The translations under genes and the position numbers were made by a program. This document shows, piece after piece, positions 42,450 through 64,000 of a DNA stretch of 64,000 nucleotides. The DNA is from Acidobacteriota bacterium (GTDB taxonomy: Bacteria > Acidobacteriota > Terriglobia > Terriglobales > Acidobacteriaceae): positions 124,001 to 188,000 of the forward strand of contig JACPYL010000010.1 in the NCBI GenBank assembly GCA_016196065.1, read 5' to 3'. Every line of letters starts with the position of its first letter. The stretch's first letter is position 1. Below the pieces are notes generated by a model, which worked only from the letters and a program-made list of their open reading frames with translations, made no database searches and was not told the DNA's origin.

Positions 42450-43634
42450 TTACCCCACTAGCCCCGCTGACGATCCCACCCACTCCATATTCTTGTTGTG
42501 ATCCACGCCCATCATCAGCCCGCGTCCCATGCGGACAATGATCAGCACCGGCGTGAGTTCCTTCAGCCAGATGTACATGATTCGCAACTCGGCCTTGGTC
42601 GGACCATGCGGAGTCTCAATCACTGGTGTGAAGCTGATTCGCTCCTGCAAAATGTATTCGCCCCGTTTAGCAGCAGGAATTGCGTCAATATCCGCCCGCG
42701 AAGGCGCAATCACTACACCCAAGCCCGCAAACGAATAAAGAGGCTTCAACACGAAGTTTTCCAGGTCGTCAGGGACCGCGGGCATCTGATCGAGAAACCA
42801 CGTGCGAGGCACGCTCGCATGTTTCAGATAAGGGATTGAATATTTGCTGATGCGGAAATACCAGTTCGGATGTCCCGCCCACTCCACATCCAAGTCATCG
42901 CGAAAATCGAAGGGCAACGCGACACCCTTCCGCTCCAGTTCGTCCACGATCGTTCGGTTGTAAATGCGATGAATCGGGATTCGCCGGCCGTCCCGTTCGT
43001 AGAATAAACGCTGGTCTTCTCTTCTAATTTTCGTGATGCAGACCGTCCGCACGCCCAGCAACTTTTCTGTCAGCAGAAAATCCGGCTGCGTCTTCTGCTC
43101 CTCGGGATGCACTTCCATCAGCACCACGTTCTCCGGATCATGACCGGCGACGATCGCATCGCGCAGCAACCGTGCATACGAATCGGGATTGAGCCCGCTC
43201 AAGTGATACCGCAACGCAGGGTCGAGACCGAATACGTCCATGTAGGTCTGCGACAGAACTGGCTGGTATGCGTACAGAGAGGGGAATGCCTGCAGTTCGA
43301 CTAGTTTTGGATGGAAGTCTCCGGCGGGATCGCGCACCAGTCCAAAATCAACCTGAATGAACATCGGGTGCGATGCCTCATTCGGAACTCGAAAGTGCGC
43401 GGGAATTGTATTTTCCGAACGCGCCCGATAATCGGGGTTGTCCACAAGTTGCCGGATCAAATCCTTGCCGTCTTCGCAGAGGCGCGCCACGAGCGAAGAA
43501 GGAAAGAAGCAAGGCGTCTCCGAAATCTGAAACGGCACTTCCATCCCGCATCGAGAAGCCAGTTCGCGCCGAAATGCCTTGTATTTTTCTGGAGTGAAGC
43601 CCGAGTTGAAGGCCTGCCGAAAGGAGGGAATCAT
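42450..43634 (-). CDS. ATP-grasp protein resembling glutathionylspermidine synthase
   Basis: About 394 residues, not matched to a named family with certainty. The middle holds MFIQVDFGLVRD and PKLVELQAFPSL, like the pre-ATP-grasp segment of glutathionylspermidine synthase. The C-terminal 120 residues carry ATP-grasp-like elements: nucleotide Lys in NFVLKPLYSFAGLGVV (about 297), Glu in YILQERI, then AELRIMYIW and a final MGRGLMMGVDHNKNMEWVG, which may bind Mg. Such enzymes join a carboxylate to an amine using ATP. The start at 43634 is chosen because the upstream frame runs through a repeat hairpin. Its neighbours are an aminopeptidase and a carboxylate-amine ligase, consistent with peptide-like metabolism. 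The specific reaction is unknown. Confidence 0.6.
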   Translation of the reverse strand: MIPSFRQAFNSGFTPEKYKAFRRELASRCGMEVPFQISETPCFFPSSLVARLCEDGKDLIRQLVDNPDYRARSENTIPAHFRVPNEASHPMFIQVDFGLVRDPAGDFHPKLVELQAFPSLYAYQPVLSQTYMDVFGLDPALRYHLSGLNPDSYARLLRDAIVAGHDPENVVLMEVHPEEQKTQPDFLLTEKLLGVRTVCITKIRREDQRLFYERDGRRIPIHRIYNRTIVDELERKGVALPFDFRDDLDVEWAGHPNWYFRISKYSIPYLKHASVPRTWFLDQMPAVPDDLENFVLKPLYSFAGLGVVIAPSRADIDAIPAAKRGEYILQERISFTPVIETPHGPTKAELRIMYIWLKELTPVLIIVRMGRGLMMGVDHNKNMEWVGSSAGLVG

Positions 43635-43680
43635 AACGTAGCGCCGGCGTCCTCGCCAGCTGTGATGTGAGTATCGGAGC

Positions 43681-43700
43681 GGCATGGCTGAAGCCGTGCC
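43681..43700. repeat. TTCA-loop hairpin repeat
   Basis: An 8-bp stem (GGCATGGC with GCCGTGCC, one G-U pair) around TGAA, which is TTCA on the minus strand. Related hairpins lie at 28667, 46493 and 46533. Confidence 0.6.
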
Positions 43701-43733
43701 TTCCCGAAGTCTTTGCGAGACCTCGCTCATCCC

Positions 43734-43766
43734 GACTAACCACTAATCACCAACCACTAAACACTG
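43734..43766 (-). repeat. Degenerate TTAGTGGT octamer array, copy 3
   Basis: About four imperfect octamer units (GACTAACC-ACTAATCA-CCAACCAC-type on the plus strand) end three bases from the stop codon of the aminopeptidase gene. Confidence 0.55.
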
Positions 43767-43769
43767 CCC

Positions 43770-44816
43770 CTACGCCTCAATCAAAAACTGCCCGCCCCGC
43801 ATGATCTGTTCGTCATCCACCCAGATATCAAATTTTCGACCGACCACATCGATGTGCGTCACGGAATACCACTCCGCTCCGGTGTGGGCGCCGTACGGGT
43901 TTCCAAAGGCGATATGCACGCCCGGATATTTCTCGTCCTGCAATATCTGCCCGATGACGTCCTTCAGTTCGATGTTGGTCCCGATCGCAAACTCTCCCAC
44001 GCGATCGCTGTTTTCGTCGGTATGGGTGTAAGCCCAGAAATCGTCTTGCAACTCGCGATTGGAGGAATGCCCTTCGACCACGCGATTGCCTTTCACCTTG
44101 ATGGTCAGGGGGTTCGCCTTTAGATCGCCAAATTTCGCGCACAGATAATCGCCGACCACACCGTCGATGACGAATGTCCCATTGACCTCGCCCGGAGTCG
44201 TAAACACTTCGCCGCCTGGGAGATTGCCCCACTTGTCGCGGCTGATAATCCCACTGGTTTTCACCCAGCGATACTTGGGATTCAAGTCCGCAGTCAGGTC
44301 GGTGCCGCTCGGAGTCGTGGCACGAATCTTTTTTGCCTTTCTGACGCGTTCGATCACCTTGGCACTCAGACGGTCGACTTTCAGAAAGTCCGCACGCATG
44401 CCTTCCAGCATGATCTGCTTGTTGATGTTCACCATGTGCGCATGGCGGATTTTCTGGCGATTAACAACATCCGTCATCTGCATGCGCGACTTCAGTTCGT
44501 TCATTTGCGCTTGCACGGCGAAGATGCTGACCTGGCTGGTCTCGAGATCTTCGACTATCGGCGCCGGCAAATCCGTCAGAGGACGCGTCGCCCAGTCTTC
44601 CAGTACCCAGGAGTTGTACTTGCAGCCCAACGCTTCCAGCTCATGTACCAGCGCCGCTGCAATTTCCAGCGTCACTTCATCGGTGATGACGGTAACTTTT
44701 TCCGAAGGTTGTATGCGCAGGCACACTTGCACGGCATTTCGCGCGCCCTGCGCGAGTTCCGGATCAAATGCCAATTGGTTGAGTTGTCGTTTCGGTTGTG
44801 TCTCTACGGTCTTCAT
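43770..44816 (-). CDS. M29-family (aminopeptidase T-like) metallopeptidase
   Basis: A 348-residue enzyme of the M29 family, which removes N-terminal residues from peptides with two divalent metals. Expected ligands and motifs are seen: GGEVFTTPGEVNGTF (about 201-215), GEFAIGTN with Glu275, HIAFGNPYGAH with His301, and the C-terminal THIDVV and DDEQIMRGGQF. The length is slightly below the usual 400. No signal peptide, so cytoplasmic. ATG 44816 was chosen because it begins seven bases after the stop of the ligase gene, while longer frames overlap it. This spacing implies cotranscription with the carboxylate-amine ligase. Confidence 0.85.
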   Translation of the reverse strand: MKTVETQPKRQLNQLAFDPELAQGARNAVQVCLRIQPSEKVTVITDEVTLEIAAALVHELEALGCKYNSWVLEDWATRPLTDLPAPIVEDLETSQVSIFAVQAQMNELKSRMQMTDVVNRQKIRHAHMVNINKQIMLEGMRADFLKVDRLSAKVIERVRKAKKIRATTPSGTDLTADLNPKYRWVKTSGIISRDKWGNLPGGEVFTTPGEVNGTFVIDGVVGDYLCAKFGDLKANPLTIKVKGNRVVEGHSSNRELQDDFWAYTHTDENSDRVGEFAIGTNIELKDVIGQILQDEKYPGVHIAFGNPYGAHTGAEWYSVTHIDVVGRKFDIWVDDEQIMRGGQFLIEA

Positions 44817-44823
44817 CCACGAA

Positions 44824-45966
44824 TCAGACGGCCCTGGCAGTGGGGAGTTCGAGCGCTTCTTCGCCCAGGCCAACCTCAGTCTCCTCAATGATGTAGTCCA
44901 CGACAGCTTTCATATCGCCTGTTTCACGGAACACTTTCAGTTGCCGGTCCGCGCCCGTGCCCATCTTCATGATCTGGCGGATGTACTCCACTTCCTTGCG
45001 TGAACCCAGTTCGTCCACCACGTCGTCCACAAACTCCAGATACTCTTCGATCAGTTCGCGTTCCGGCACTTCGGTCTGTTTGCCGAAGTCAACCAATTTT
45101 CCATCCAAGCCGTAGCGCGCTGCCCGCCACTTGTTTTCCATCAGCAGCGATCGCCGGTACAAGCGGAATCCGGTATTGGCGGAATAAAGACGATACAGTT
45201 TAGCAACCGTCGCCTGGATCAGCGCCGCCAGCGCAATCGTCTCGTCCACCCGCATCGGGATATCGCATACGCGGAACTCGAGCGTGTTAAAGAATGGATG
45301 CGGTCGAATGTCCCACCAGATCTTCTTCGCGTTATCGATGCAGTTCGTCTTCACCAGCAGCTTGATGTAGTTGTCGTACTCGCCCCAACTCGGAAAGTAG
45401 TCGGGCATGTTCGTGCGCGGAAACTTGTCGAACACTTTGCAGCGGTACGATTTCAAACCCGTGTTCATCCCCAGCCAGAAAGGCGAATTCGAAGACAGCG
45501 CCAGCAGATGCGGCACAAAATACCGCGCGTGGTTCATCAGGTGGATCGCGGTCTCGCGGTCCTCCACGCCAACGTGTACGTGTAGTCCAAAAATCAGGTT
45601 CGCGCGCGCCACCAGTTGCAGGTCTTCGACAATGTTCTTGTAACGCTCGTCGGGAGTCACTTCCTGTAATCGCCAATCGGCAAATGGATGCGTCGCCGCC
45701 GACGCCAGCCGCAGCCCGTTCTCCCGCGACAACCGGATCATGTCGCGCCGTAGTTTTTTCAGCTCGTCCTTGGCCTCGGTAATGTTGTTGCAGACCGAAG
45801 TTCCCACTTCCACCACCGACTGGTGCATCTCAGCCTTTACGCGCTCTTGCAGGATGAGTTTGCCCTTCTCGATGATCTCGGCATGAATGTGCGACCGCAG
45901 ATCCCGAGTCTCGGGATCGACTGTCTGATACTCCTCTTCAATGCCCAGCGTGAACGTAGGTTTCAT
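44824..45966 (-). CDS. GCS2-family carboxylate-amine ligase (YbdK-like)
   Basis: A 380-residue enzyme of the glutamine-synthetase-fold GCS2 family, which forms amide bonds with ATP, as in gamma-glutamylcysteine synthesis. Motifs: LGIEEEYQTVD at the N-terminus (metal-binding Glu), GLHVHVG (about 127-133) and WWDIRPHPFFNTLEFRVCD (about 217-235). Members include EgtA-like and weak glutamate-cysteine ligases, but substrates vary. It leads directly into the M29 peptidase gene. A glutathione-type role would need a gshB, and ATP-grasp genes are indeed nearby, though neither looks like classical GshB. Start at 45966 fits the family N-terminus. Confidence 0.85.
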   Translation of the reverse strand: MKPTFTLGIEEEYQTVDPETRDLRSHIHAEIIEKGKLILQERVKAEMHQSVVEVGTSVCNNITEAKDELKKLRRDMIRLSRENGLRLASAATHPFADWRLQEVTPDERYKNIVEDLQLVARANLIFGLHVHVGVEDRETAIHLMNHARYFVPHLLALSSNSPFWLGMNTGLKSYRCKVFDKFPRTNMPDYFPSWGEYDNYIKLLVKTNCIDNAKKIWWDIRPHPFFNTLEFRVCDIPMRVDETIALAALIQATVAKLYRLYSANTGFRLYRRSLLMENKWRAARYGLDGKLVDFGKQTEVPERELIEEYLEFVDDVVDELGSRKEVEYIRQIMKMGTGADRQLKVFRETGDMKAVVDYIIEETEVGLGEEALELPTARAV

Positions 45967-46053
45967 AGCGGCACCACAAGCCAGCCGGAGGGGGCCAGCC
46001 AAAGTCCAGATAGTATAACAGTGTTTAGGAGGGGCCTTACCTGGCTAAGCTCA

Positions 46054-46099
46054 TGTGGGGACAGGTCTCCGACCTGTCCAGCCGGGCAAAGCCCGGCAG
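46054..46099 (+). repeat. Tandem-hairpin intergenic repeat, copy B
   Basis: It has the same two hairpins as 27387-27432, with a compensatory change in the second stem. It lies 20 bases before the ATG of the SnoaL-like gene, upstream of its GGGGGA ribosome site. Confidence 0.8.
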
Positions 46100-46119
46100 T
46101 TTCAGGGGGAGCAAATCTA

Positions 46120-46464
46120 ATGGAAGTCCAACAACACCAACTGCTAACCGCCCTCTACGCCGCCTTCAACGCCCGCGACATCGATCGCTGCCTGACCGGC
46201 ATGCTGCCAGATGTGATCTGGGCCAACGGCATGGAAGGAGGCAGTGTTCACGGCCACGCCGGCGTACGAGAGTATTGGACGCGCCAGTGGAAACAGGTAA
46301 ATCCACGCGTGGATCCGCAAGGCTTCCACATTGACGGCGACAAAGTCACCGTGGATGTCCACCAGGTGGTGCGGGACATGGACGGCTCTGTGCTTGCCGA
46401 CCAGATGGTGAAGCACGTTTTCACGTGCGAAAACGGGCTGGTCAAGATTTTTGAGATTGCCTAG
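46120..46464 (+). CDS. SnoaL/NTF2-like domain protein
   Basis: A 114-residue protein with the SnoaL-like fold: LLTALYAAFNARDIDRCLTG at the N-terminus, the V-x-G-H-A-G-V-R-E-Y-W segment, and a final strand pair ending HVFTCENGLVKIFEI. The fold serves in small isomerases and hydrolases and as a non-enzymatic binding domain; no active-site set can be assigned. GGGGGA precedes the ATG at 46120. It is the only plus-strand gene inside a long minus-strand run and begins right after a repeat. The frame upstream is antisense to the ligase gene and was not used. Confidence 0.75.
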   Translation: MEVQQHQLLTALYAAFNARDIDRCLTGMLPDVIWANGMEGGSVHGHAGVREYWTRQWKQVNPRVDPQGFHIDGDKVTVDVHQVVRDMDGSVLADQMVKHVFTCENGLVKIFEIA

Positions 46465-46492
46465 AGCCGGTCTCACAAAAGGTTTTCGGGAG

Positions 46493-46546
46493 GGCACGAT
46501 TTCAATCGTGCCGCTATCGGTCTACAAAAACGCGGGCTTCAGCCCG
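46493..46546. repeat. Two TTCA-loop hairpins
   Basis: GGCACGAT-ttca-ATCGTGCC (46493-46512, perfect 8-bp stem) and CGGGC-ttca-GCCCG (46533-46546). They lie between the convergent SnoaL gene and the small membrane protein candidate. Confidence 0.7.
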
Positions 46547-46590
46547 TGAGGGCAGGCTCGTTGTATCGACCGACAAGAGATCGGTCTAGG

Positions 46591-46710
46591 TTATTTCTTC
46601 CTTCGGCGAGGCCACCAGTGTCGCGCGTCGATGTAAGCAGGTACAACAAGGAATGCCAAGAACACGAGAACAGCCAAAACAACAAACAAAACTGCAGCGA
46701 AAGTTCGCAA
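46591..46710 (-). CDS. Candidate 39-residue small membrane protein (TTG start)
   Basis: The frame encodes L(M)-R-T-F, then one long hydrophobic helix (AAVLFVVLAVLVFLAFLVVP), AYIDARHWW and a basic tail PRRRKK. This is a textbook single-span small protein with a positively charged C-terminal end. No ATG or GTG is available, since the first in-frame start after the upstream TAG is TTG at 46710, with GGAAGG only two bases before it. It lies 51 bases downstream of the ATP-grasp gene on the same strand. A non-coding explanation is possible. Confidence 0.4.
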   Translation of the reverse strand: MRTFAAVLFVVLAVLVFLAFLVVPAYIDARHWWPRRRKK

Positions 46711-46761
46711 AGCCTTCCAACTCTCTCTGTGCCTCCCCGGTGAAAAGAACTACTCCTGGCC

Positions 46762-47736
46762 CTACGCCTTCTTCCGCGGCTTTGGCGTCTTCAGATCCAC
46801 CCACTTCGGCCCCGTCAAAAACGACGCCCAGCGCATCTCTTCATAGGGCTTCTCGTCGCTTAGAGCCGTCTTCACCAGCATCTCCGCGACATTCTCAACC
46901 GCCCATTTGAAATTCTCCGGACCAACCGAAGTGATCTCTGCATCCGGCGCCGGATTCATGAAATCGATCGCATAGGGCACGCCGTCCTCGACCGCAAACT
47001 CCACCGTGTTCAGGTCATACCCCAAGGCGCGGCACAGAGCCAAAGCATCCTTCTCGACGCGTTCCTTCATGGCCGGCGCCGGCGCAGGATTCCCCTTCAC
47101 ATATCGTTCATGATGAGGAGCCTTCGGGTCATAGCGCATGATGTGCACTTTTTCCTGACCGACCACATAGCACCGGAAATAATCGTCAAATACCACGCCA
47201 TGCTGCAGCGTCATGCAGAGATCGCCGGTCTGGTTATAGGCGTTGAAGAACTCTTCCGGAGTGTCGACCTTGTACACATGCTTCCACCCGCCACCAGCGT
47301 ATGGTTTCAGGAAAGCCGGGAACCCGACATACTCAAACACTTCTTCCCAATTCAGCGGATAGATCAGGTTCCTCATCGACAGATCAGTCGTATCCGGCGG
47401 ATGCTTCTGATGCGGCAGGATCACCGTCGGCGGAATCGCCACGCCCATCTTGTGCGCCATCGCGTAGTTGAAGAACTTGTCGTCCGCCGTCCACCAGAAC
47501 GGATTGTTCACGACAATCGTCCCCTGCAGCATCGCGTTCTTCAGATATGCGCGATAGAACGGAATGTCTTGCGAGATGCGATCCAGGATCACCGCATATT
47601 TCTTCGGCTCATCCATCCGGATTCCGCCAATCTTCACAAACTCCGCCTCAACTCCCGCATTCAAAGAGTTGATCTTCTCCACCAACGCCGGCGGAAACGT
47701 ATTCTCCATCCCAAAAAGAAGTCCGATTTTCTTCAC
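46762..47736 (-). CDS. ATP-grasp ligase (D-Ala-D-Ala ligase/RimK-like fold)
   Basis: A 324-residue protein with ATP-grasp features: an N-terminal Rossmann-like half, the nucleotide Lys144 in FLKPYAGGGWKHV, Glu247 in TVEFAVEDG and the Mg-binding DFMNPAPDAE (Asp258, Asn261). The C-terminus is Lys/Arg-rich. It should join a carboxylate to an amine or thiol with ATP. It is too short and too different in the N-terminal half to be Ddl or GshB, so the substrate is unknown. It belongs to a minus-strand run with the carboxylate-amine ligase, the other ATP-grasp protein and the M29 peptidase. Confidence 0.78.
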   Translation of the reverse strand: MKKIGLLFGMENTFPPALVEKINSLNAGVEAEFVKIGGIRMDEPKKYAVILDRISQDIPFYRAYLKNAMLQGTIVVNNPFWWTADDKFFNYAMAHKMGVAIPPTVILPHQKHPPDTTDLSMRNLIYPLNWEEVFEYVGFPAFLKPYAGGGWKHVYKVDTPEEFFNAYNQTGDLCMTLQHGVVFDDYFRCYVVGQEKVHIMRYDPKAPHHERYVKGNPAPAPAMKERVEKDALALCRALGYDLNTVEFAVEDGVPYAIDFMNPAPDAEITSVGPENFKWAVENVAEMLVKTALSDEKPYEEMRWASFLTGPKWVDLKTPKPRKKA

Positions 47737-47762
47737 AGTACACTCCCGATTTTGCTTGCCAC

Positions 47763-47820
47763 CAGCTAGAAGCTAGCAGCCAGTAGCGCGAATTGATAGC
47801 TCGCGGCACGTAGCTCGAAG
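47763..47820. repeat. AGCT-rich short tandem repeat
   Basis: AGCTAGAAGCTAGCAGC and TAGCTCG-type words recur in the 91-base gap before the ATP-grasp gene. Similar words lie at 51307-51331 and 53758-53783. Confidence 0.45.
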
Positions 47821-47827
47821 CCTCTTC

Positions 47828-49171
47828 TTACTTGATAAACTCTCCCGCCCCACCCTGCGACCACGGATCATACGTTACACAGAACTGCACACGGTCGCGA
47901 ATGCGGGGATGGTCAAAGAACAAGAATACGTCAAGCGGATCAGGGTCAGGATCGGCAAGGTTGACTTCGCCCATCGCCTGAAACGTTTGTGCTGCCACTT
48001 GGCCCGAGTCGGGCGTCAGACTATGCGTGACTTCGAGTCCATACTGGTCGGCCTGGTGTTCGGCATAGCGACTGAAGCCGCTGAGAAGTGGGTTGCTTGC
48101 GAACTGAAGTATGGAGAGCAGCAACACCAGAACCGGCAGCGAAGCCCAGTCGTCGAGCGCATGGATTCCCCAGCCCGCGCCCCAGCGCGCAAGCATCCAG
48201 CCCACTAAACGATAGCCGACATAGAACAGCAGAAGAAAAACGACGCCCGCCGCCGCAATGCCCTTAGGCACGTGCTGCAAAACATAGTGTCCGGTTTCGT
48301 GACCTGCGGTGAAAACGATTTGCGGCGCGTTCAGCTTGGCGATCGTGGTATCCCATACGACGATGCGCTTCGACTGGCCGATCCCGGTGACGTAAGCGTT
48401 GAGAGCAGTAGTCTTCTCACCAGCGTTCATCCAGAACATGCGCTCCGGTGGAATATCGACGCCGGCCCTCTGCACCATCTGCTCCAAGGCGGATACAAGC
48501 GCGGGATCTCGTTTCTGCAAAGGCTCAAATTTGTGGAACAGGGGATCGATTACCCAGGGCGTGATCAGTGTCACCAGGACGACGAGCGGCAGGGAAGCCA
48601 GCCAAAAATGGAACCACCAGCGTTGCGGACTTTTGCGGATCACCGCATACAGAATCCACACGAACACGGTCGCCAGAATCACCGCGACCATTTGCCCAAG
48701 CGCCCAGTCCCCAGCCCACGATCCCCATCCCTGGATCGAAATGCCGAACCGCCTTTCGACCATCTGGCCATAAATGTCGATAGGGAGAGTAAGTATGTCG
48801 AGAGCCAGAACAAACAGCGGAGCGAATATGCAGGCCTGCAGGAATCGCCGCGACGAGAAGTGAACCGCCCAGTCGCGAAACTTCGCGCTCAGTTTCAGCC
48901 GCAGGATAAGCCACAGGGCAAACAGTCCATAGAAGAAGTTGACCAAGTCCAACCGAAAGTGAATCCGGCGCCGCTCGTGGGCTTTCTGATAGAGGTCAGG
49001 CGGCAGGGTGTAAGCCGTCACTGTGTGGGCTGCCTGCGGCGCGGTTCCGGCTGGCGATGCAATCGAAGACTGCTGTTGTTGACGGGCATCAGCCGATGGC
49101 GTCTGATCGCCCGCCGCGCAGACGGATGCCGAAAATACCAGCGCCAATAAAACTGAAGCCAACCTGGTCAT
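47828..49171 (-). CDS. M48-family membrane metalloprotease (Ste24/CAAX protease type)
   Basis: A 447-residue protein. A signal sequence (MTRLASVLLALVFSASVCAAG) and a disordered Gln/Ser region precede a Ste24-like multi-span N-terminal domain. The zinc site is HETGHYVLQH with the third ligand in the downstream YAEHQADQYGLEVTH. Ste24-type enzymes act in membrane protein quality control; CAAX processing is not expected in bacteria. It ends 91 bases before the ATP-grasp gene and starts 37 bases after the esterase gene, so the three may be cotranscribed. Confidence 0.88.
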   Translation of the reverse strand: MTRLASVLLALVFSASVCAAGDQTPSADARQQQQSSIASPAGTAPQAAHTVTAYTLPPDLYQKAHERRRIHFRLDLVNFFYGLFALWLILRLKLSAKFRDWAVHFSSRRFLQACIFAPLFVLALDILTLPIDIYGQMVERRFGISIQGWGSWAGDWALGQMVAVILATVFVWILYAVIRKSPQRWWFHFWLASLPLVVLVTLITPWVIDPLFHKFEPLQKRDPALVSALEQMVQRAGVDIPPERMFWMNAGEKTTALNAYVTGIGQSKRIVVWDTTIAKLNAPQIVFTAGHETGHYVLQHVPKGIAAAGVVFLLLFYVGYRLVGWMLARWGAGWGIHALDDWASLPVLVLLLSILQFASNPLLSGFSRYAEHQADQYGLEVTHSLTPDSGQVAAQTFQAMGEVNLADPDPDPLDVFLFFDHPRIRDRVQFCVTYDPWSQGGAGEFIK

Positions 49172-49208
49172 CTTGTCTCACTCGCGTCGTGCGCGAACGA
49201 TCACGACT

Positions 49209-49922
49209 TCAGTACAGATACTTTCCCGCCATTCGCTGCCACAAGGGCCAATCATGCTTGTTGTTGTCGCCCCAGATGTCCAGCCAGTGCGGAATCCCCT
49301 TCGCGTGCAGCAATCCCGCCATCTTGATATTCGCGTCCAGGCACATATCCCAGTCCGACGTTCCGAGCACAATCTTCATGGCACGAATGCGCGAAAGGAG
49401 CCCATCATCATTCATTCCCTGCACATAGTCGGGCGGATTGTTGAAATACACGTTGTCATCAAAGTAGGCGTCGAGAAAACTCTTGATGTTATACGACCCG
49501 CTCATGCAAATGCACGCCGACACCAGATCCGGATGCCGCAACGAAAAATTCAACGCATGATAGCCGCCAAAACTGCATCCCGTAACCGCCAGCTGCGGGG
49601 CCCAGTTCTTCCACTTCAGGAACGGCACGAATTCGTTCATTACATACTTTTCGTACTGCACATGCCGCCAGATCCGCGACCCCGGATGCACTCCCTTGTT
49701 GTACCAACTCTCGGTATCAACGCTATCGACGCAAAACACCTGGAGCTCGCCAGCATCGATCTTCGGAGCGAGTGTGCGGATCATTCCCGCATCTTCATAT
49801 TCAAAAAAACGTCCCATGGAACTCGGGAAGACGAGCAGAGGCGCGCCGGCATGTCCAAAGACAAGCGACTCCATATCCCGCTGCAACTCGTGGCTGTAAT
49901 TCTTATGGTGTTCGCGATTCAT
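49209..49922 (-). CDS. Esterase-like alpha/beta hydrolase
   Basis: A 237-residue cytoplasmic alpha/beta hydrolase of the putative-esterase group. The nucleophile Ser is in the elbow VTGCSFGGYHAL. An acid is plausible in LGTSDWDMCL, and the catalytic His is probably in NNKHDWPLW. No lid or signal peptide is seen. Homologues hydrolyse small esters or thioesters such as S-formylglutathione. Placed at the head of a run containing ligases and peptidases, it could release or edit the product of that pathway, which is inference only. It is divergent from the next gene. Confidence 0.8.
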   Translation of the reverse strand: MNREHHKNYSHELQRDMESLVFGHAGAPLLVFPSSMGRFFEYEDAGMIRTLAPKIDAGELQVFCVDSVDTESWYNKGVHPGSRIWRHVQYEKYVMNEFVPFLKWKNWAPQLAVTGCSFGGYHALNFSLRHPDLVSACICMSGSYNIKSFLDAYFDDNVYFNNPPDYVQGMNDDGLLSRIRAMKIVLGTSDWDMCLDANIKMAGLLHAKGIPHWLDIWGDNNKHDWPLWQRMAGKYLY

Positions 49923-50047
49923 TTCGAGGAAGGATTGTACCCGAACCGGGCGGATACTCGCACATCGCCGCCCGCCTGCTACTCTATGCCATCACGTTGC
50001 GCGGGCCCGAAGCGATCACCACTCTTTTGGCCACCCGTCTAATCCGT

Positions 50048-51178
50048 ATGACTCGAATCCAACGTCTGTTCGTGGCCCTGGCTCTGGTGGTGAGTGTGTC
50101 TTCCATCCTGAGCGCACAAAGTCGCCACGCCACCACCGACTGGGACGTTCGCCCATCGTTCAAATTCGACGCCCTCTGCGCCCTGAACGTACTCAGCGCC
50201 GACCCCTATTATCTCGAATACTACAAAGCGGACTACGAGCGCCTCTCCCGCCTGCTCAAGCCCGAGGAACTGGCCGCCTTCGCCAGCCTCAAGCACCGCA
50301 TCAAGGACGAAAACGGCGGCATCATCTCCGCCCATCTCTCGCTGTACTTTTCCGCCGTCGAAGCCGATTCACTGGAAGATCTGATCCACGTCGTTGACGA
50401 CAGCGCCGCCATGAAGCGCAACCTCCAGGCCACGCCTTACTTCGATGAGGATGGATGGAAACTCTACGAAGCCAGCCGCCTCGACCTGAAGACGGCGTTC
50501 CGAGCGCTGCAGCGTATCCACTTCGAATCCGACTGGGAAAAAGAAGTTCGACCTCGCGTAGAAGAAGCAAGAAAAAAGATCGCCGCCGACCTTCCCAAAT
50601 ACAACATTGTGCCCGCAATCGAATCCGTGCTGGGGACGCCCCTGGCGTCCAACCACATCACCGTCTACCTTCTTTATTATTCCGAGCCGCACGGCATCAA
50701 GATCACCGGCACCCGGTTTCTCTCGCATTACTCGTATCCGTTTCGCATCGTTCTCCACAACGCCATCCACGAAATGATGCATCCGCCCTACGATCTGGCG
50801 CACGATCCTGCCCTGCGCGCGGATCTAACCTTGCTTCGCTCCGTCCCCTATTTCATGAACAAGGTCGAGCACCACGACCGCTCCTTCGGATACAACGAGC
50901 CCGACGGCCTGGTTGAAGAAGATTGTGTGCAGGCGCTGGAAGAGTGGATCGCCGAGCGCTTCATCGCACCCCAGGACATGAAGGAATACTGGCGCCAGCA
51001 GGACGACGGCATCCACGTTTTCGCCGTCGCTCTCTACTCGTTATTCAAGGAACAACATTTCAGCGATCCCGCAGAGCCGTTCCCCGCGTTCCTCAAACGC
51101 ATGTTCAAGGAAGGAAAATTCTCCGGCAACCAGATCGAAGATCGGAACAAAGCATTCTTCAGCGCAGCAACACACTAG
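50048..51178 (+). CDS. Secreted protein of unknown family with an HExxH zinc motif
   Basis: A 376-residue protein not recognised as a named family. A signal peptide (MTRIQRLFVALALVVSVSSILSAQ) starts it. Near residue 240 it has HNAIHEMMHPPYDL, an HExxH zinc-binding helix, and about 50 residues later EEDCVQALEEWIAERF, which could give the third Glu ligand of a gluzincin-type peptidase. Before these are long charged helices. It is predicted to act in the periplasm. The frame extends 92 codons upstream, but these are antisense to the esterase start, and the ATG at 50048 yields the signal peptide. Confidence 0.65.
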   Translation: MTRIQRLFVALALVVSVSSILSAQSRHATTDWDVRPSFKFDALCALNVLSADPYYLEYYKADYERLSRLLKPEELAAFASLKHRIKDENGGIISAHLSLYFSAVEADSLEDLIHVVDDSAAMKRNLQATPYFDEDGWKLYEASRLDLKTAFRALQRIHFESDWEKEVRPRVEEARKKIAADLPKYNIVPAIESVLGTPLASNHITVYLLYYSEPHGIKITGTRFLSHYSYPFRIVLHNAIHEMMHPPYDLAHDPALRADLTLLRSVPYFMNKVEHHDRSFGYNEPDGLVEEDCVQALEEWIAERFIAPQDMKEYWRQQDDGIHVFAVALYSLFKEQHFSDPAEPFPAFLKRMFKEGKFSGNQIEDRNKAFFSAATH

Positions 51179-51591: not shown

Positions 51592-53760
51592 ATGCATAAG
51601 CCGATCAAGTATGTCGAGAAGGCCGTTACGATCGCAGCCACTGGCGCGTGGGCCATCTTTGAACGTTTGAACCGTGTTGCTCCCAATCCATCGCCGACCC
51701 CGAAGTGGTCCGATAAGCCGCTGCTCAAGTCTTTCGAAAAATCGAAGCCGCCCCTTGGCTGGCCGCGCACCACGGACTCGCTCTGTCCGAAGTGTGTGCC
51801 GGAAATTCGCCAGCAGATTCTTGACGGCAAATTGCCCGTCGACGTGTTGATGAACGAAAAAGTCGGCGAGATCAAAGCGCAGATCATCGAGCGCGATGGC
51901 AAGATCTGGATGGTCAAGGATTGCCCGACCCACGGACACTTCGAAGATCTGATGTCGATCGACACCGAGTTCTCCGATCACCTGGAAAAAGTTTTCCCCG
52001 GCCGCGACATCAAGGCCCATAACGACGAGAAGCTCCATCACCACGGATCGTCGACCGTGAAATACGGCCGCGGATCAGTGTTGACGGTCGATCTCACCAA
52101 CCGTTGCAACATGATGTGCGATCCCTGCTTCATGGACGCCAACCAGGTTGGCTTCGTTCACGAATTGACGTGGGAAGAAATCAAGACCGTTCTCGATAAC
52201 GCGATCACCATCAAGCCGCGCCGCCAGATGTCCGTACAGTTCTCGGGCGGCGAGCCCACGTTGTCGCCGTACTTCCTGGACGCCGTCCGCTATGCCCGCA
52301 AGGTTGGCTACAACAGCGTGCAGGCTGCGACTAACGGCATCGAATTCGCGAAGAGTTTTGAATTCGCGCAGCAAGCTGCCGAAGCGGGATTGCGGTATGC
52401 CTATCTGCAGTTCGACGGTATCGGCAACGCCGCCAACGCGCACCGCGCAGTCGGCAATCTGTTTGACGTGAAGTTGAAGGCGATCGATAACCTCCATCGC
52501 GCCGGCGTCGAAATCGTGCCCGTCGTGACCATCGTCAACGGCATCAACAACGAACAAGTTGGACGCATCATCCAGTTCGCATTAGACAATCCGAAAAAAA
52601 TTGGCTTCCTCAGCTTCCAGCCCGTAAGCTTCACCGGCCGCGACGAAGCCATCACCGATGAACGCCGCCAGGCGCAGCGTTACACGCTGGCCCACTTGGC
52701 GCACGACGTAAAAAATCAAACCGGCCTCGGCGAACCGAAACGCGACTGGTATCCGATCAGCTTCATGTCCACTTTCAGCGATTGGGCCGACGTCATGCAC
52801 GCCGGCGAACCCAACAACGACTGGGGCCAACTCTCCTGCGGTTGTCATCCAAATTGTGGGACGGGGATGGCGATCATGATTGATAAGGAGACCAAGGAAG
52901 CGGTGCCGGTTACGGCTTTCCTGAAGGGCGATCAGCTCGCAAAGGATATTGCGAAGGTTAACGATGCGGCTCGGTCGAAGTTCTGGACGGTATTTGGAAT
53001 GGCTCTGTGCTTGATGAAGAATTACGATTCATTCCAGTCCCCGACGCATTTCAAGTTGATGGACCTGCTCAAGAAGTTCGATAAGAACTTCAACGCGACC
53101 GGCAAGAACTACGGCAAGGTCGGTCCAGACCGGACGATTGACGACGTCATGAAGCGCCGCCAGGATCGCTGGAATTTCCTGTTCGTTGCGGGAATGTGGT
53201 TCCAGGATCTGTTCAACTACGACTTCCGCCGGACCGAGCAGTGCATCATTCCTTACGCCACGCAGGAAGGCGAGATCAGCTTCTGCGCTTACAACACGGG
53301 CGTGGGATGGCGCAACATCATCGAGAAGATGCACATGACCGCCACGCTCACCAAGTGGTATGAAGAGCATGGACGTCACGAGATCTTCGCGGGCGGCAAG
53401 AAAGTCAACATGGAAGACGCGCAGCATTCCCTGCAGTTGCGCGATGGGATCGTGACCCAGGAAATCCAGCACGATCTGGACAAGCTGGGCATCGCTAAGA
53501 CAGCGCGCGAAGAGAAGGTTCGAGCGCGCGACGCGAAACAGGCTGCGGAACGCGGCAACAAGAAGAACGACGCCGCTTACGACGCACGCATGGCTGCACT
53601 CTATCGGGAAGTGGTTCTGAAAGAGAAGGCCGCGACGTCGGACGAAGCCGGATTCATCCCGCTCGGCGCGATCGCACCCGCAGCGAACAACGGCAACTCC
53701 AATGGAAGCGAAGCTAAGAAAGCAGCGGAGCAGGTTGGGGAGCCAGTGGCTGGGGACTAG
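51592..53760 (+). CDS. Radical SAM protein resembling tetraether/membrane-spanning lipid synthase (Tes/MJ0619-like)
   Basis: A 722-residue radical SAM protein. The SAM-cluster motif CNMMCDPC is Cys172, Cys176 and Cys179, followed by FSGGEPTLSP. Before it are Cys65 and Cys68 in DSLCPKC and Cys111 in KDCPTHGHF, and after it Cys416, Cys418, Cys422, Cys551 and Cys565, enough for additional clusters. The N-terminal CPxC plus CPxHG layout is characteristic of the MJ0619/Tes group, whose archaeal members couple lipid tails into tetraethers; Acidobacteria make the analogous iso-diabolic acid and branched GDGT lipids. A polar tail of about 100 residues follows. The lipid role is inferred from family resemblance. 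It stands alone with its own terminator. Confidence 0.7.
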   Translation: MHKPIKYVEKAVTIAATGAWAIFERLNRVAPNPSPTPKWSDKPLLKSFEKSKPPLGWPRTTDSLCPKCVPEIRQQILDGKLPVDVLMNEKVGEIKAQIIERDGKIWMVKDCPTHGHFEDLMSIDTEFSDHLEKVFPGRDIKAHNDEKLHHHGSSTVKYGRGSVLTVDLTNRCNMMCDPCFMDANQVGFVHELTWEEIKTVLDNAITIKPRRQMSVQFSGGEPTLSPYFLDAVRYARKVGYNSVQAATNGIEFAKSFEFAQQAAEAGLRYAYLQFDGIGNAANAHRAVGNLFDVKLKAIDNLHRAGVEIVPVVTIVNGINNEQVGRIIQFALDNPKKIGFLSFQPVSFTGRDEAITDERRQAQRYTLAHLAHDVKNQTGLGEPKRDWYPISFMSTFSDWADVMHAGEPNNDWGQLSCGCHPNCGTGMAIMIDKETKEAVPVTAFLKGDQLAKDIAKVNDAARSKFWTVFGMALCLMKNYDSFQSPTHFKLMDLLKKFDKNFNATGKNYGKVGPDRTIDDVMKRRQDRWNFLFVAGMWFQDLFNYDFRRTEQCIIPYATQEGEISFCAYNTGVGWRNIIEKMHMTATLTKWYEEHGRHEIFAGGKKVNMEDAQHSLQLRDGIVTQEIQHDLDKLGIAKTAREEKVRARDAKQAAERGNKKNDAAYDARMAALYREVVLKEKAATSDEAGFIPLGAIAPAANNGNSNGSEAKKAAEQVGEPVAGD

Positions 53761-53791: not shown

Positions 53792-53818
53792 AGGCCGCCT
53801 TCGGGCGGCCTTTCTTAT
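53792..53818 (+). terminator. Rho-independent terminator of the radical SAM gene
   Basis: AGGCCGCC and GGCGGCCT form an 8-bp stem around a TTCG tetraloop, followed by TTCTTATT. It lies 31 bases after the stop codon. Confidence 0.85.
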
Positions 53819-61520: not shown

Positions 61521-61698
61521 CTGCTCAATTTCCTTGCACTATTCGCCTTCCGCGTGAAAATGCGTGCTTTTTCCCTGCCATTCATCGTTTTTCAGTCAGA
61601 CACTCCGCCAAGGAATTTGTGGCGCAAGGCCTCTTTAGGTGGCATAGACTTCTGGACGAGCGCTGGTCGCGCCCCGCGATCGTTGCGGATTGGTTAAA

Positions 61699-64000
61699 AT
61701 GGAAGATTCCGCCCTCCCCGTGGAAGGCGTTGTCAGCCGAAAGAACTGCTTGTCCCAGACCAACTCACATCTCGGTCGCCCGGCCGCCCCAGTTTACTGG
61801 CGGGTCGAAGGCAGTCTGCTGGAACTGACGACGACTCGTTCCATCGCCTTTTTTGCCTGGAACAGCCAGACTTTTGCTTCACGTGGATTGCGGCGAGGGC
61901 TGGTTCTGCTCACGGCGGCGCTGCGGCCAATTCTCTACGCGCTCAATCGAAAGGCAGCCACGCGGATCGTCCACTCGGTGCTGCGGGGGATTACGCGAGA
62001 CCGGCTCGATCTGCTGGGAGAAGAAGAATTCCAGTACAAGCTGAAGCCGCTCCTGAAGGAAGAAGGAGTGAAGAAACTCAAGGCGCTGCAGGATACGGGC
62101 GCCGAAGTGGTGCTGGTGAGCCAGGGGCTGGACCATGTGATGCGTCCGCTGGCGCGGCATGTGGGAGTGCGGTGGATCATTTCCAATCGCTTGGAGTTTC
62201 GCGATGGCGTGGCAACCGGCAGAGTACTGAGCCCGATTATTCGTCCGCGAGGGTTGTTTGCGCGGATCGCCGAAGCGGGGCCGGACGGACAACAGAGCAC
62301 GGCACGCTGGGTGCGGGCGCTTGGTCTCCGAGGATTGCGGGCGCTCGAAGGGGCGGCAGTTTCGGCGGATCGGGAAGCGCCGGTGCGATCGCGTCCGATT
62401 GTTTATTTTGATGAGACCCGGCATACAGGCCAGCTCTCGGTGCGCAAGGCACTGAGTGGCCGACGCATCCTGCTGATCGGGGTCACGGGATTTATCGGCA
62501 AGGTGTGGCTCGCCAATATGCTTCTGGATTTGCCGGAAATCGGGAAATTGTATTTGCTGATCCGGCGTCAGAAGTCGAATCCAGGCCGCGCGCGTTTCGA
62601 GAAGATGATCGAGGAGTCGCCGGTTTTCGATCCTCTGTTTGAACGCTACGGCGACCGTCTCGATTCGTTTCTCGCCGACAGAGTGGAAGTTGTGGAAGGC
62701 GATGTTTCGCAGCCGGGACTGGGACTGGATCCGGAAGTGGCGGCGCGTCTACAAGGCGAGTTGGATGTCATCGTCAACAGCTCGGGGCTGACCGATTTCA
62801 ATCCTGACCTGCGGGATGCGTTAGCCGTCAACGTGGACTCGACCTATCACCTGATCGAGTTTATCCGTGGATCGAAACATGCGGCCTTGCTGCACCTCTC
62901 CACCTGTTACGTTGCCGGACAGCGCGATGGACGAGTGAGCGAGCGGGTTCGTCTGAACTACACGCCGGCTGGTGTGGCGGACTTTGACGCGGAAAAAGAG
63001 TGGCATGCGCTGCACGAGTTTGTGGAATCCGCGGAAGCGCGGGCCGAGGGGCCTGAAGTTACGGAGGAATTGCGGCAGCAGGCGCGTGAAAAAGAACACG
63101 CGGCCAAGGATCTGCACGGAGCGGCGCTGGAGAACCAGATTCGTAAGAATCGAGTGCGCTGGCTGAAGAACTACTTGACCGAGGCCGGGATGGCCCGCGC
63201 GCGCGAACTAGGCTGGCCGAATACGTACACATTCAGCAAGAGCCTGGCCGAATCGCTGATCGCGAAGCACGGGGCGGGGCTGCCGATCGCCATTGTGCGG
63301 CCGGCGATTGTGGAAACGTCGGTATTTAAGCCGTTTCGCGGGTGGAATGAAGGCATCAATACCTCGGCTTCGTTGTCGTATCTGTTGGGAACTTCGTTCC
63401 GGCAATTGCCGTCGAACGAACGCAAGCGGCTCGACATTATTCCGGTGGACGCGGTGTGCGCGGGCATGACACTGATAGCAGCAGCGCTGGTTGAACGGCG
63501 GCATGATCCGCTGTACCAGTTGGCGACGTCGGTGACCAATCCTTGCGACATGGGCCGGTGTATTGAGTTGACTTCGTTGGGACATCGCAAGCACTACCGG
63601 GCGCAAGAAGGTCTGGAGTATTGGCTACGATTGAGGATGGATGCGATTTCGGTTTCCAAGACGCGCTACAAGCGCATGTCGGCGCCGGCGCAGCGGATGA
63701 TCATCAAGTCTATACAGGCGATCATGTCGCCCCTACCGGTCCGCAAGCCGCTGGCAAAAACGGAGCGCAGCCTGGAGCGGGTTGAAAAGCTGATTGAGTT
63801 GTTTGAGCCGTTTATTCTGCACAACGAGCATGATTTTGTCGCGGACAATGTCGAGAAGCTCGCACAGGCATTGGTGCCGGAAGAACGGGCTGCTTTTGGA
63901 TACGACGCGGCGGCGGTGGACTGGTGGGAATATTGGATCGAAATTCACATCCCGGCTCTGCGGCGGTGGACGTATCCGCTGATTGAAGGGCGTCCACTGG
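61699..64000 (+). CDS. HAD-like domain fused to a fatty acyl-CoA reductase (partial)
   Basis: The frame is open from ATG 61699 to the window end (767 codons, no stop). Residues about 30-240 resemble a HAD-IB phosphatase, but motif I reads YWRVEGSLLE where the family has the nucleophile in DxDGT; the first Asp is Arg and the second Glu. VVLVSQGLD and RLEFRDGVATG match later HAD segments, so the domain is probably inactive. From about 253 an SDR-type reductase follows: GVTGFIGKVW, NSSGLTDFNPDL, and catalytic Tyr510/Lys514 in YTFSK, like fatty acyl-CoA reductases. Expected product is a fatty alcohol or aldehyde for lipids. The C-terminus lies outside. Confidence 0.8.
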   Translation, partial: MEDSALPVEGVVSRKNCLSQTNSHLGRPAAPVYWRVEGSLLELTTTRSIAFFAWNSQTFASRGLRRGLVLLTAALRPILYALNRKAATRIVHSVLRGITRDRLDLLGEEEFQYKLKPLLKEEGVKKLKALQDTGAEVVLVSQGLDHVMRPLARHVGVRWIISNRLEFRDGVATGRVLSPIIRPRGLFARIAEAGPDGQQSTARWVRALGLRGLRALEGAAVSADREAPVRSRPIVYFDETRHTGQLSVRKALSGRRILLIGVTGFIGKVWLANMLLDLPEIGKLYLLIRRQKSNPGRARFEKMIEESPVFDPLFERYGDRLDSFLADRVEVVEGDVSQPGLGLDPEVAARLQGELDVIVNSSGLTDFNPDLRDALAVNVDSTYHLIEFIRGSKHAALLHLSTCYVAGQRDGRVSERVRLNYTPAGVADFDAEKEWHALHEFVESAEARAEGPEVTEELRQQAREKEHAAKDLHGAALENQIRKNRVRWLKNYLTEAGMARARELGWPNTYTFSKSLAESLIAKHGAGLPIAIVRPAIVETSVFKPFRGWNEGINTSASLSYLLGTSFRQLPSNERKRLDIIPVDAVCAGMTLIAAALVERRHDPLYQLATSVTNPCDMGRCIELTSLGHRKHYRAQEGLEYWLRLRMDAISVSKTRYKRMSAPAQRMIIKSIQAIMSPLPVRKPLAKTERSLERVEKLIELFEPFILHNEHDFVADNVEKLAQALVPEERAAFGYDAAAVDWWEYWIEIHIPALRRWTYPLIEGRPL

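Follow-up and report, generated by a model that had tools for sequence, protein, structure and literature searches.

A cluster-deficient, tetraether synthase-like radical SAM subfamily of an Acidobacteriota class as a candidate for iso-diabolic acid synthesis

The 64,000-nucleotide stretch of acidobacterial DNA analysed here (the window) carries a gene whose product is probably a radical SAM carbon-carbon coupler of the tetraether synthase (Tes) type, most likely making the iso-diabolic acid lipids of this Acidobacteriota class. By sequence, its closest characterised relative is the archaeal tetraether synthase, of which the protein represents a distinct, slimmed-down subfamily, hereafter the long form. 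Iso-diabolic acid is the presumed building block of the brGDGTs, which serve as temperature and pH proxies, and the long form is a strong candidate for the enzyme behind the membrane-spanning lipids of a widely used fossil thermometer. The features of the gene and its surroundings are listed in Table 1.

Table 1. Features of the long-form gene and its surroundings in the window.
Feature	Position	Strand	Evidence or conservation
Tes-like radical SAM gene, long subfamily, 722 aa	51592..53760	+	ORF with ATG start, profile, structure, alignment, tree
N-terminal extension, confidently predicted helix (residues 3-27)	51598..51672	+	first two ten-residue blocks pLDDT 88 and 91
Rubredoxin-type metal site, C65-x2-C68 ... 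C111-x2-H114	51784..51933	+	96/96 long form, 29/29 Tes
Lost N-terminal [4Fe4S] cluster site, LHHHGSST in place of the Cys-rich loop of Tes	52033..52056	+	alignment
Radical SAM CX3CX2C (C172, C176, C179)	52105..52128	+	94, 94 and 95 of 96; otherwise gaps or X
SAM-pocket residues G220, Y271, D275, V311, T313, Q343, S346, T348, R350	52249..52641	+	each 95-96/96
CxC-x3-C (C416, C418, C422)	52837..52857	+	all 96/96 long form
Rest of C-terminal cluster site (M535, C551, C565)	53194..53286	+	96, 95 and 95 of 96; remainder gaps
Variable, low-confidence polar tail	53398..53757	+	low pLDDT; mean majority residue 0.64 (601-650) and 0.44 (651-722)
Terminator-like hairpin, then TTCTTATT	53792..53811	+	about 30 bases past the stop
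HAD and fatty-acyl-reductase-like (NAD_binding_4) fusion, first gene of the elb-like cluster	61690..64000	+	runs past the window end

The Tes profile NF045702 matched residues 61-582 of the protein, nearly the whole profile, with 318 bits (9.3e-95), short of the curated cut-off of 450 bits; the second-best profile, TrsS (NF045646), gave 208 bits, far under its cut-off of 490 bits, so that the protein does not fall within TrsS. Among solved structures, the best relative by sequence was the MJ0619 tetraether synthase (7TOL/7TOM; E 6.9e-61), the next entry reaching 2.3e-6. When a weak AlphaFold2 model of the protein (mean pLDDT 63, pTM 0.69) was compared with known structures in Foldseek, 7TOM/7TOL again ranked at the top (2e-22), with the next entry at 3e-5. 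Thus the original prediction, which proposed a Tes-like candidate for lipid coupling, gains support from the profile ranking and from the best relative by both sequence and fold. Because the 450-bit cut-off and the ligands of the N-terminal cluster were both tested, and the protein has neither the score nor the ligands, it is not filed as Tes. The genome of origin holds two Tes-profile matches at 1e-18, and the window protein alone keeps the C-terminal cluster cysteines. Its other match (G000:C8 96316-97680; L135 6113-7744, + strand; TrsS profile 308 bits, Tes 256 bits) is a mirror image of the window protein, in that it keeps the CPYDCGLC loop of the N-terminal cluster and lacks the C-terminal cluster cysteines; its gene adjoins one that resembles lgt by eye.

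The protein contains 12 cysteines in all, in keeping with the original prediction of at least eight beyond the radical SAM CxxxCxxC. The motifs named in that prediction are all present, namely CPKC (C65, C68), CPTHG (C111, H114) and CX3CX2C (C172, C176, C179), followed by CxC-x3-C (C416, C418, C422) and two late cysteines (C551, C565). Given that the Tes profile matches residues 61-582 at 9e-95, and that these residues are kept in 94-96 of 96 relatives, the motif set is not a product of chance. The accompanying claim, that the cysteines follow the order of the MJ0619/Tes group, held for the rubredoxin-type, radical-SAM and C-terminal ligands; it failed for the N-terminal cluster, of which three cysteines and a histidine are absent.

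These sites were compared in an alignment of 96 long-form sequences (the window protein, the best 80 named loci listed and 15 from other genomes) with 29 Acidobacteriota Tes proteins over the cut-off, MJ0619 (chain residues 35-512 only) and the second paralogue of the genome of origin. In MJ0619, PMC9433317 describes a rubredoxin-type site (C9, C12, C33, H36), an N-terminal [4Fe4S] cluster bound by C73, C77, C80 and a histidine, a radical-SAM cluster, and a C-terminal [4Fe4S] cluster with the labile Met439; the N-terminal cluster sits on the surface, and its role is called unclear there. The 7tol chain numbering is offset by 20 from that of PMC9433317, and the cysteine spacing and the methionine agree with this offset. 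All four N-terminal cluster ligands (Cys73, Cys77, Cys80 and His) were found in 29/29 Acidobacteriota true Tes, whereas they were found in 0/96 long-form sequences. In place of Cys73 the long form has Lys (63/96) or otherwise His, Gly, Thr, Asp, Asn, Glu, Pro or Arg; the Cys77 column is His in 96/96; the Cys80 column is Ser in 95/96, with one gap; and His is absent from the column of MJ0619 His83, which is taken to be the unnumbered His ligand of the N-terminal cluster in PMC9433317. A further position, MJ0619 Asn108, which belongs to the loop closing over the active site and makes a contact there, is Asn in 29/29 Tes and Asp in 95/96 long-form sequences. The roles of the MJ0619 residues equivalent to the SAM pocket in Table 1 were taken from PMC9433317. 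Of the three cysteines in CxC-x3-C, only C422, at the position of the first C-terminal [4Fe4S] ligand, has an equivalent in MJ0619; C416 and C418, invariant in the long form, are present in 3/29 and 23/29 true Tes, respectively. M535 aligns with the labile Met439. Over aligned pairs, identity to MJ0619 was 28-34% for the long form versus 38-46% for Acidobacteriota true Tes.

Ahead of the first rubredoxin cysteine, 64 residues were counted in 56 of the 96 long sequences, and 23-148 in the 29 Tes. At the other end, the original prediction had described a polar tail of roughly 100 residues as unusual. The tail is actually 157 residues past the last cluster cysteine, and a long tail proved to be the rule of the subfamily (79-197 residues in the 96 long sequences, compared with 20-56 in the 29 Tes).

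A tree was built from 61 rows (30 long form, 29 Tes, MJ0619 and the paralogue), with no radical SAM families from outside the Tes/TrsS group. The long form was recovered as a single clade (100/100) inside Acidobacteriota Tes, its nearest row coming from genome G101 (96/81), and the tree thus makes it a derived form from within Tes. A long stem (2.23 changes per column) leads to the clade; the tool flags possible long-branch attraction, and the stem leaves the exact sister unsure. On the parsimonious reading, the N-terminal cluster would have been lost once, on the stem of the long clade. Placement among methyltransferases or unrelated subfamilies, which the original prediction had raised, was not found; the tree, whose rows are all Tes-profile proteins, nests the long form among Tes. 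The Tes proteins that branch nearest the long form, from G101 (L128), G018 and G109 (L131, L130), have all cofactor sites; L128 shows CxC-x3-C, and these proteins may be intermediates.

When genomes of the class were searched at 1e-100, the long form was found in 236 of 250 genomes and in 89 of 95 genera, and in 198 of the 203 genomes with completeness of 90% or more and contamination of 5% or less. Across the phylum, a search at 1e-125 recovered it in 143 of 297 genomes; the Tes profile at 1e-30 had matches in 172 of the 297, with 34 over the cut-off. Accordingly, 12 genomes hold both forms, 131 the long form only, 22 true Tes only, and 132 neither. At least 80 named loci carry the long form (73-91% identity), with acidobacterial names throughout the best 80 listed. 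The viral contigs searched held no relative of the protein, and plasmids gave weak matches in 32 of 72,556 records, none spanning 80% of the query. A COX1-family gene (PF00115, a family that may also take in nitric oxide reductases) was present in 126/131 long-only compared with 13/22 Tes-only genomes (Fisher 6.5e-6, a value that overstates the evidence because related genomes are counted separately), as well as in 10/12 genomes with both forms and 95/132 with neither. This association is compatible with the loss of a surface [4Fe4S] cluster alongside aerobic life.

Some genomes, such as G105, G141, G204 and others (e.g. L140, L141), contain a second, divergent long form (50-53% identity) beside the usual one (about 67%), and several of these also carry a reductase protein of ElbD size. 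In three genomes of the window's family, the long form shares its contig and strand with true Tes, the ORF coordinates giving distances of about 0.25 kb (G265), 3.4 kb (G121) and 5.7 kb (G073). The adjacent proteins are only about 34-35% identical, and therefore do not represent a recent duplication. A conserved small ORF follows Tes at these loci (L132, L133 and L134, in G073, G121 and G265).

The gene was originally predicted to have its own terminator, and a terminator-like hairpin does follow the stop (Table 1); within the scanned stretch, 6 such sites were found on both strands, compared with 3.3 expected from shuffles. No conserved operon partner across the class emerged from crude ORF clustering of 84 neighbourhoods, in which no other family occurred in more than 13; this is a rough negative, as the greedy gene caller keeps spurious ORFs. 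Upstream, a run at window 42450-49922 (- strand) includes two frames without a Pfam match (426 and 324 aa; ATP-grasp-like by eye), together with an M29-like protein, a GCS2 ligase, an M48 protease and an esterase, and parts of this group recur near the long-form gene in several relatives. Between that run and the gene, window 50021-51178 (+ strand) encodes a HEMMH-motif protein with no Pfam match and, by eye, a possible signal sequence.

The acyl reductase fusion that the original prediction placed 8 kb away is indeed there, and the linkage recurs in 11 other loci. After the fusion come an NAD_binding_4/epimerase protein, a polysaccharide-pyruvyl-transferase-like protein, an AMP-binding ligase, an enoyl-CoA hydratase-like protein, a second AMP-binding protein and a diacylglycerol-kinase-like protein; no acyltransferase domain was found among the scanned proteins of this elb-like cluster. 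Of the 83 loci examined for linkage, 54 extend 7 kb or more downstream. A co-directional reductase follows the long gene in 9 of the best 80 named loci listed (0.24-5.2 kb), and likewise in G023 (about 0.2 kb), G132 (about 4 kb) and the window (8 kb), some of these records perhaps being close relatives of one another. For as much of each linked locus as is available, the subsequent cluster genes come in an unchanged order. A full-length reductase (>900 bits) occurs in nine genomes: three have the long gene no more than about 8 kb away (G000, G023, G132), five have it on a different contig, and G062 is without the long form. The other 34 reductase matches include 32 in frames of 1442-2018 aa, ElbD-like by size. 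Genome counts, uncorrected for kinship, gave the long form in 41/43 genomes with a reductase match (1e-60) versus 102/254 without; true Tes showed the reverse (1/43 versus 33/254, likewise uncorrected). The acyl-reductase cluster is thus linked to the long form in a minority of relatives. A glycerol ester reductase (Ger, two PF01869 domains) was not found in the genome of origin, which has one 308-aa match only, and this argues against Ger-made ether lipids here.

Iso-diabolic acid has been reported at 12-30% of fatty acids in six Edaphobacter strains (PMC11354219), at 30-31% in SBC82 and CCO287 (PMC6252331), and at 27-49% in Occallatibacter and close relatives (PMC12935467). Judged from the names of the nearest loci, these strains with 12-49% (Acidobacteriaceae-type) would belong to this class. 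Pyrinomonas, described as obligately aerobic, also contains the acid (PMC4644332). A role in making brGDGTs or iso-diabolic acid was already proposed for acidobacterial Tes homologues by Zeng 2022 (PMC8941075), where homologues are given at 32% in the brGDGT producer Edaphobacter aggregans (one homologue), 42% in Koribacter and 40% in Solibacter, and a Tes role was also proposed for the Solibacter homologue in PMC10087280. Although the query of Zeng 2022 was the Tes of M. acetivorans and the identities here relate to MJ0619, the E. aggregans homologue fits the long form (28-34%) better than true Tes (38-46%) and is probably a long form; those of Koribacter and Solibacter fit the true-Tes class. 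The passages of Zeng 2022 and PMC10087280 on these homologues concern the same superfamily and the same proposed role, and do not set apart two acidobacterial classes or a lost cluster. No earlier description of the lost N-terminal cluster was found in the titles and abstract openings searched, and this detail is likely, though not certainly, new.

We infer the substrate, product and cofactor content of the window protein, for which the following reaction is proposed. The radical-SAM cluster would cleave SAM, and the 5'-deoxyadenosyl radical would abstract hydrogen from the terminus of an iso-C15 chain in a membrane lipid. Through a C-S bond to the C-terminal [4Fe4S] cluster (C422, C551, C565, labile M535), the resulting radical would be stored until its coupling with a second tail radical gives a C30 membrane-spanning chain. 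The N-terminal [4Fe4S] cluster found in archaeal Tes would play no part in this coupling. In MJ0619, one of the clusters was shown to carry a C-S intermediate (PMC9433317), and its assignment to the C-terminal cluster here would follow by analogy with the reaction centre proposed in that paper.

Given the score below the cut-off, the missing cofactor site and the exchange of Asn108 for Asp, substrate or chemistry may have shifted. Together with the long stem, these features permit a change of function, in which the protein would perform Tes-like radical chemistry on lipid tails to another product (C5/C6 methylation, a cross-link of other lipids, or desaturation) while iso-diabolic acid comes from another enzyme, for example Mss. 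The occurrence of true Tes together with the long form in 12/297 genomes would also suit such a division. Moreover, Thermotoga maritima, the source of the tested Mss (PMC11604127), gave no Tes-profile match at 1e-18, so that this tested coupler seems to lie outside the Tes family. We nevertheless regard another product as unlikely, since all nine SAM-pocket residues are retained along with the complete C-terminal cluster site, and since a near-universal spread in the class suits a major lipid better than an occasional decoration. In addition, Acidipila rosea DSM 103428, Acidipila sp. EB88 and Acidobacteriaceae KBS 83 each have one Tes-profile match at 1e-30 (324-332 bits), which is the long-form locus, and no second such protein.

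A requirement for a partner, be it true Tes or a protein encoded in the elb-like cluster, in whose absence the protein would be inactive, could account for the proximity of true Tes in three genomes and of the reductase cluster in some relatives. However, true Tes over the cut-off is absent from 131 of the 143 long-form genomes, 102 of the 143 lack a reductase match at 1e-60, and this reading appears very unlikely. Least credible of all is that the protein methylates a small pterin-like molecule, the function formerly annotated for MJ0619. Pfam does name the N-terminal site of the window protein Zn_ribbon_HMPTM ('HMPTM zinc ribbon'), a name that presumably descends from the old MJ0619 annotation; yet PMC9433317 suggests that the pterin annotation is incorrect and reports a hydrophobic, lipid-filled pocket in MJ0619.

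Coupling of lipid tails by the long form itself is thus the reading we prefer. A more extended account, offered tentatively and held to be possible rather than probable, is that the three-cofactor coupler evolved once from an Acidobacteriota Tes and shed the surface cluster, allowing such radical chemistry to proceed in oxygen-respiring cells. On this account it would be the class's principal iso-diabolic acid synthase, with coupling to the elb-like cluster in some lineages, and its gene would mark the producers of soil brGDGT precursors. The activity of bacterial Tes homologues is described as unconfirmed in PMC11868695, and a gene that is near-universal in the class, with the signature of a missing cofactor, makes the question testable. 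The long form also raises the question of whether the N-terminal cluster of archaeal Tes is dispensable, and distinguishes two classes of acidobacterial Tes that are pooled in a plain search by identity.

When the locus is set beside known systems, the neighbouring cluster resembles the elb operon of Myxococcus xanthus (PMC9131029) in having HAD, FAR-like reductase, NAD epimerase and acyl-CoA-ligase-type parts near the gene; it differs in that HAD is fused to the reductase and the ligase is separate, and the likeness concerns the neighbour and not the long gene itself. With the GMGT synthase Gms (PMC11186832), the window protein would share the coupling of lipid chains by radical SAM chemistry; a SPASM domain forms the C-terminal part of Gms, whereas none was found in the window protein by a Pfam scan at E up to 1. 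TrsS (NF045646) is approached more closely by the other paralogue of the genome of origin than by the window protein. For Mss of Thermotoga and Bacillota the same reaction is proposed (PMC13274423, PMC11604127), and models of Mss are reported to superpose on Tes (PMC13274423). Unlike Tes/GDGT-MAS (MJ0619, 7TOL/7TOM), the long form lacks the N-terminal [4Fe4S] ligands, has Asp for Asn108 and carries two extra cysteines before the C-terminal cluster, and the window protein has its 157-residue tail, 318 rather than 450 bits, and about 30% identity. What it has in common with Tes/GDGT-MAS is the rubredoxin-type site, the CX3CX2C motif, the C-terminal [4Fe4S] ligands with the labile methionine, the nine SAM-pocket residues and the fold.
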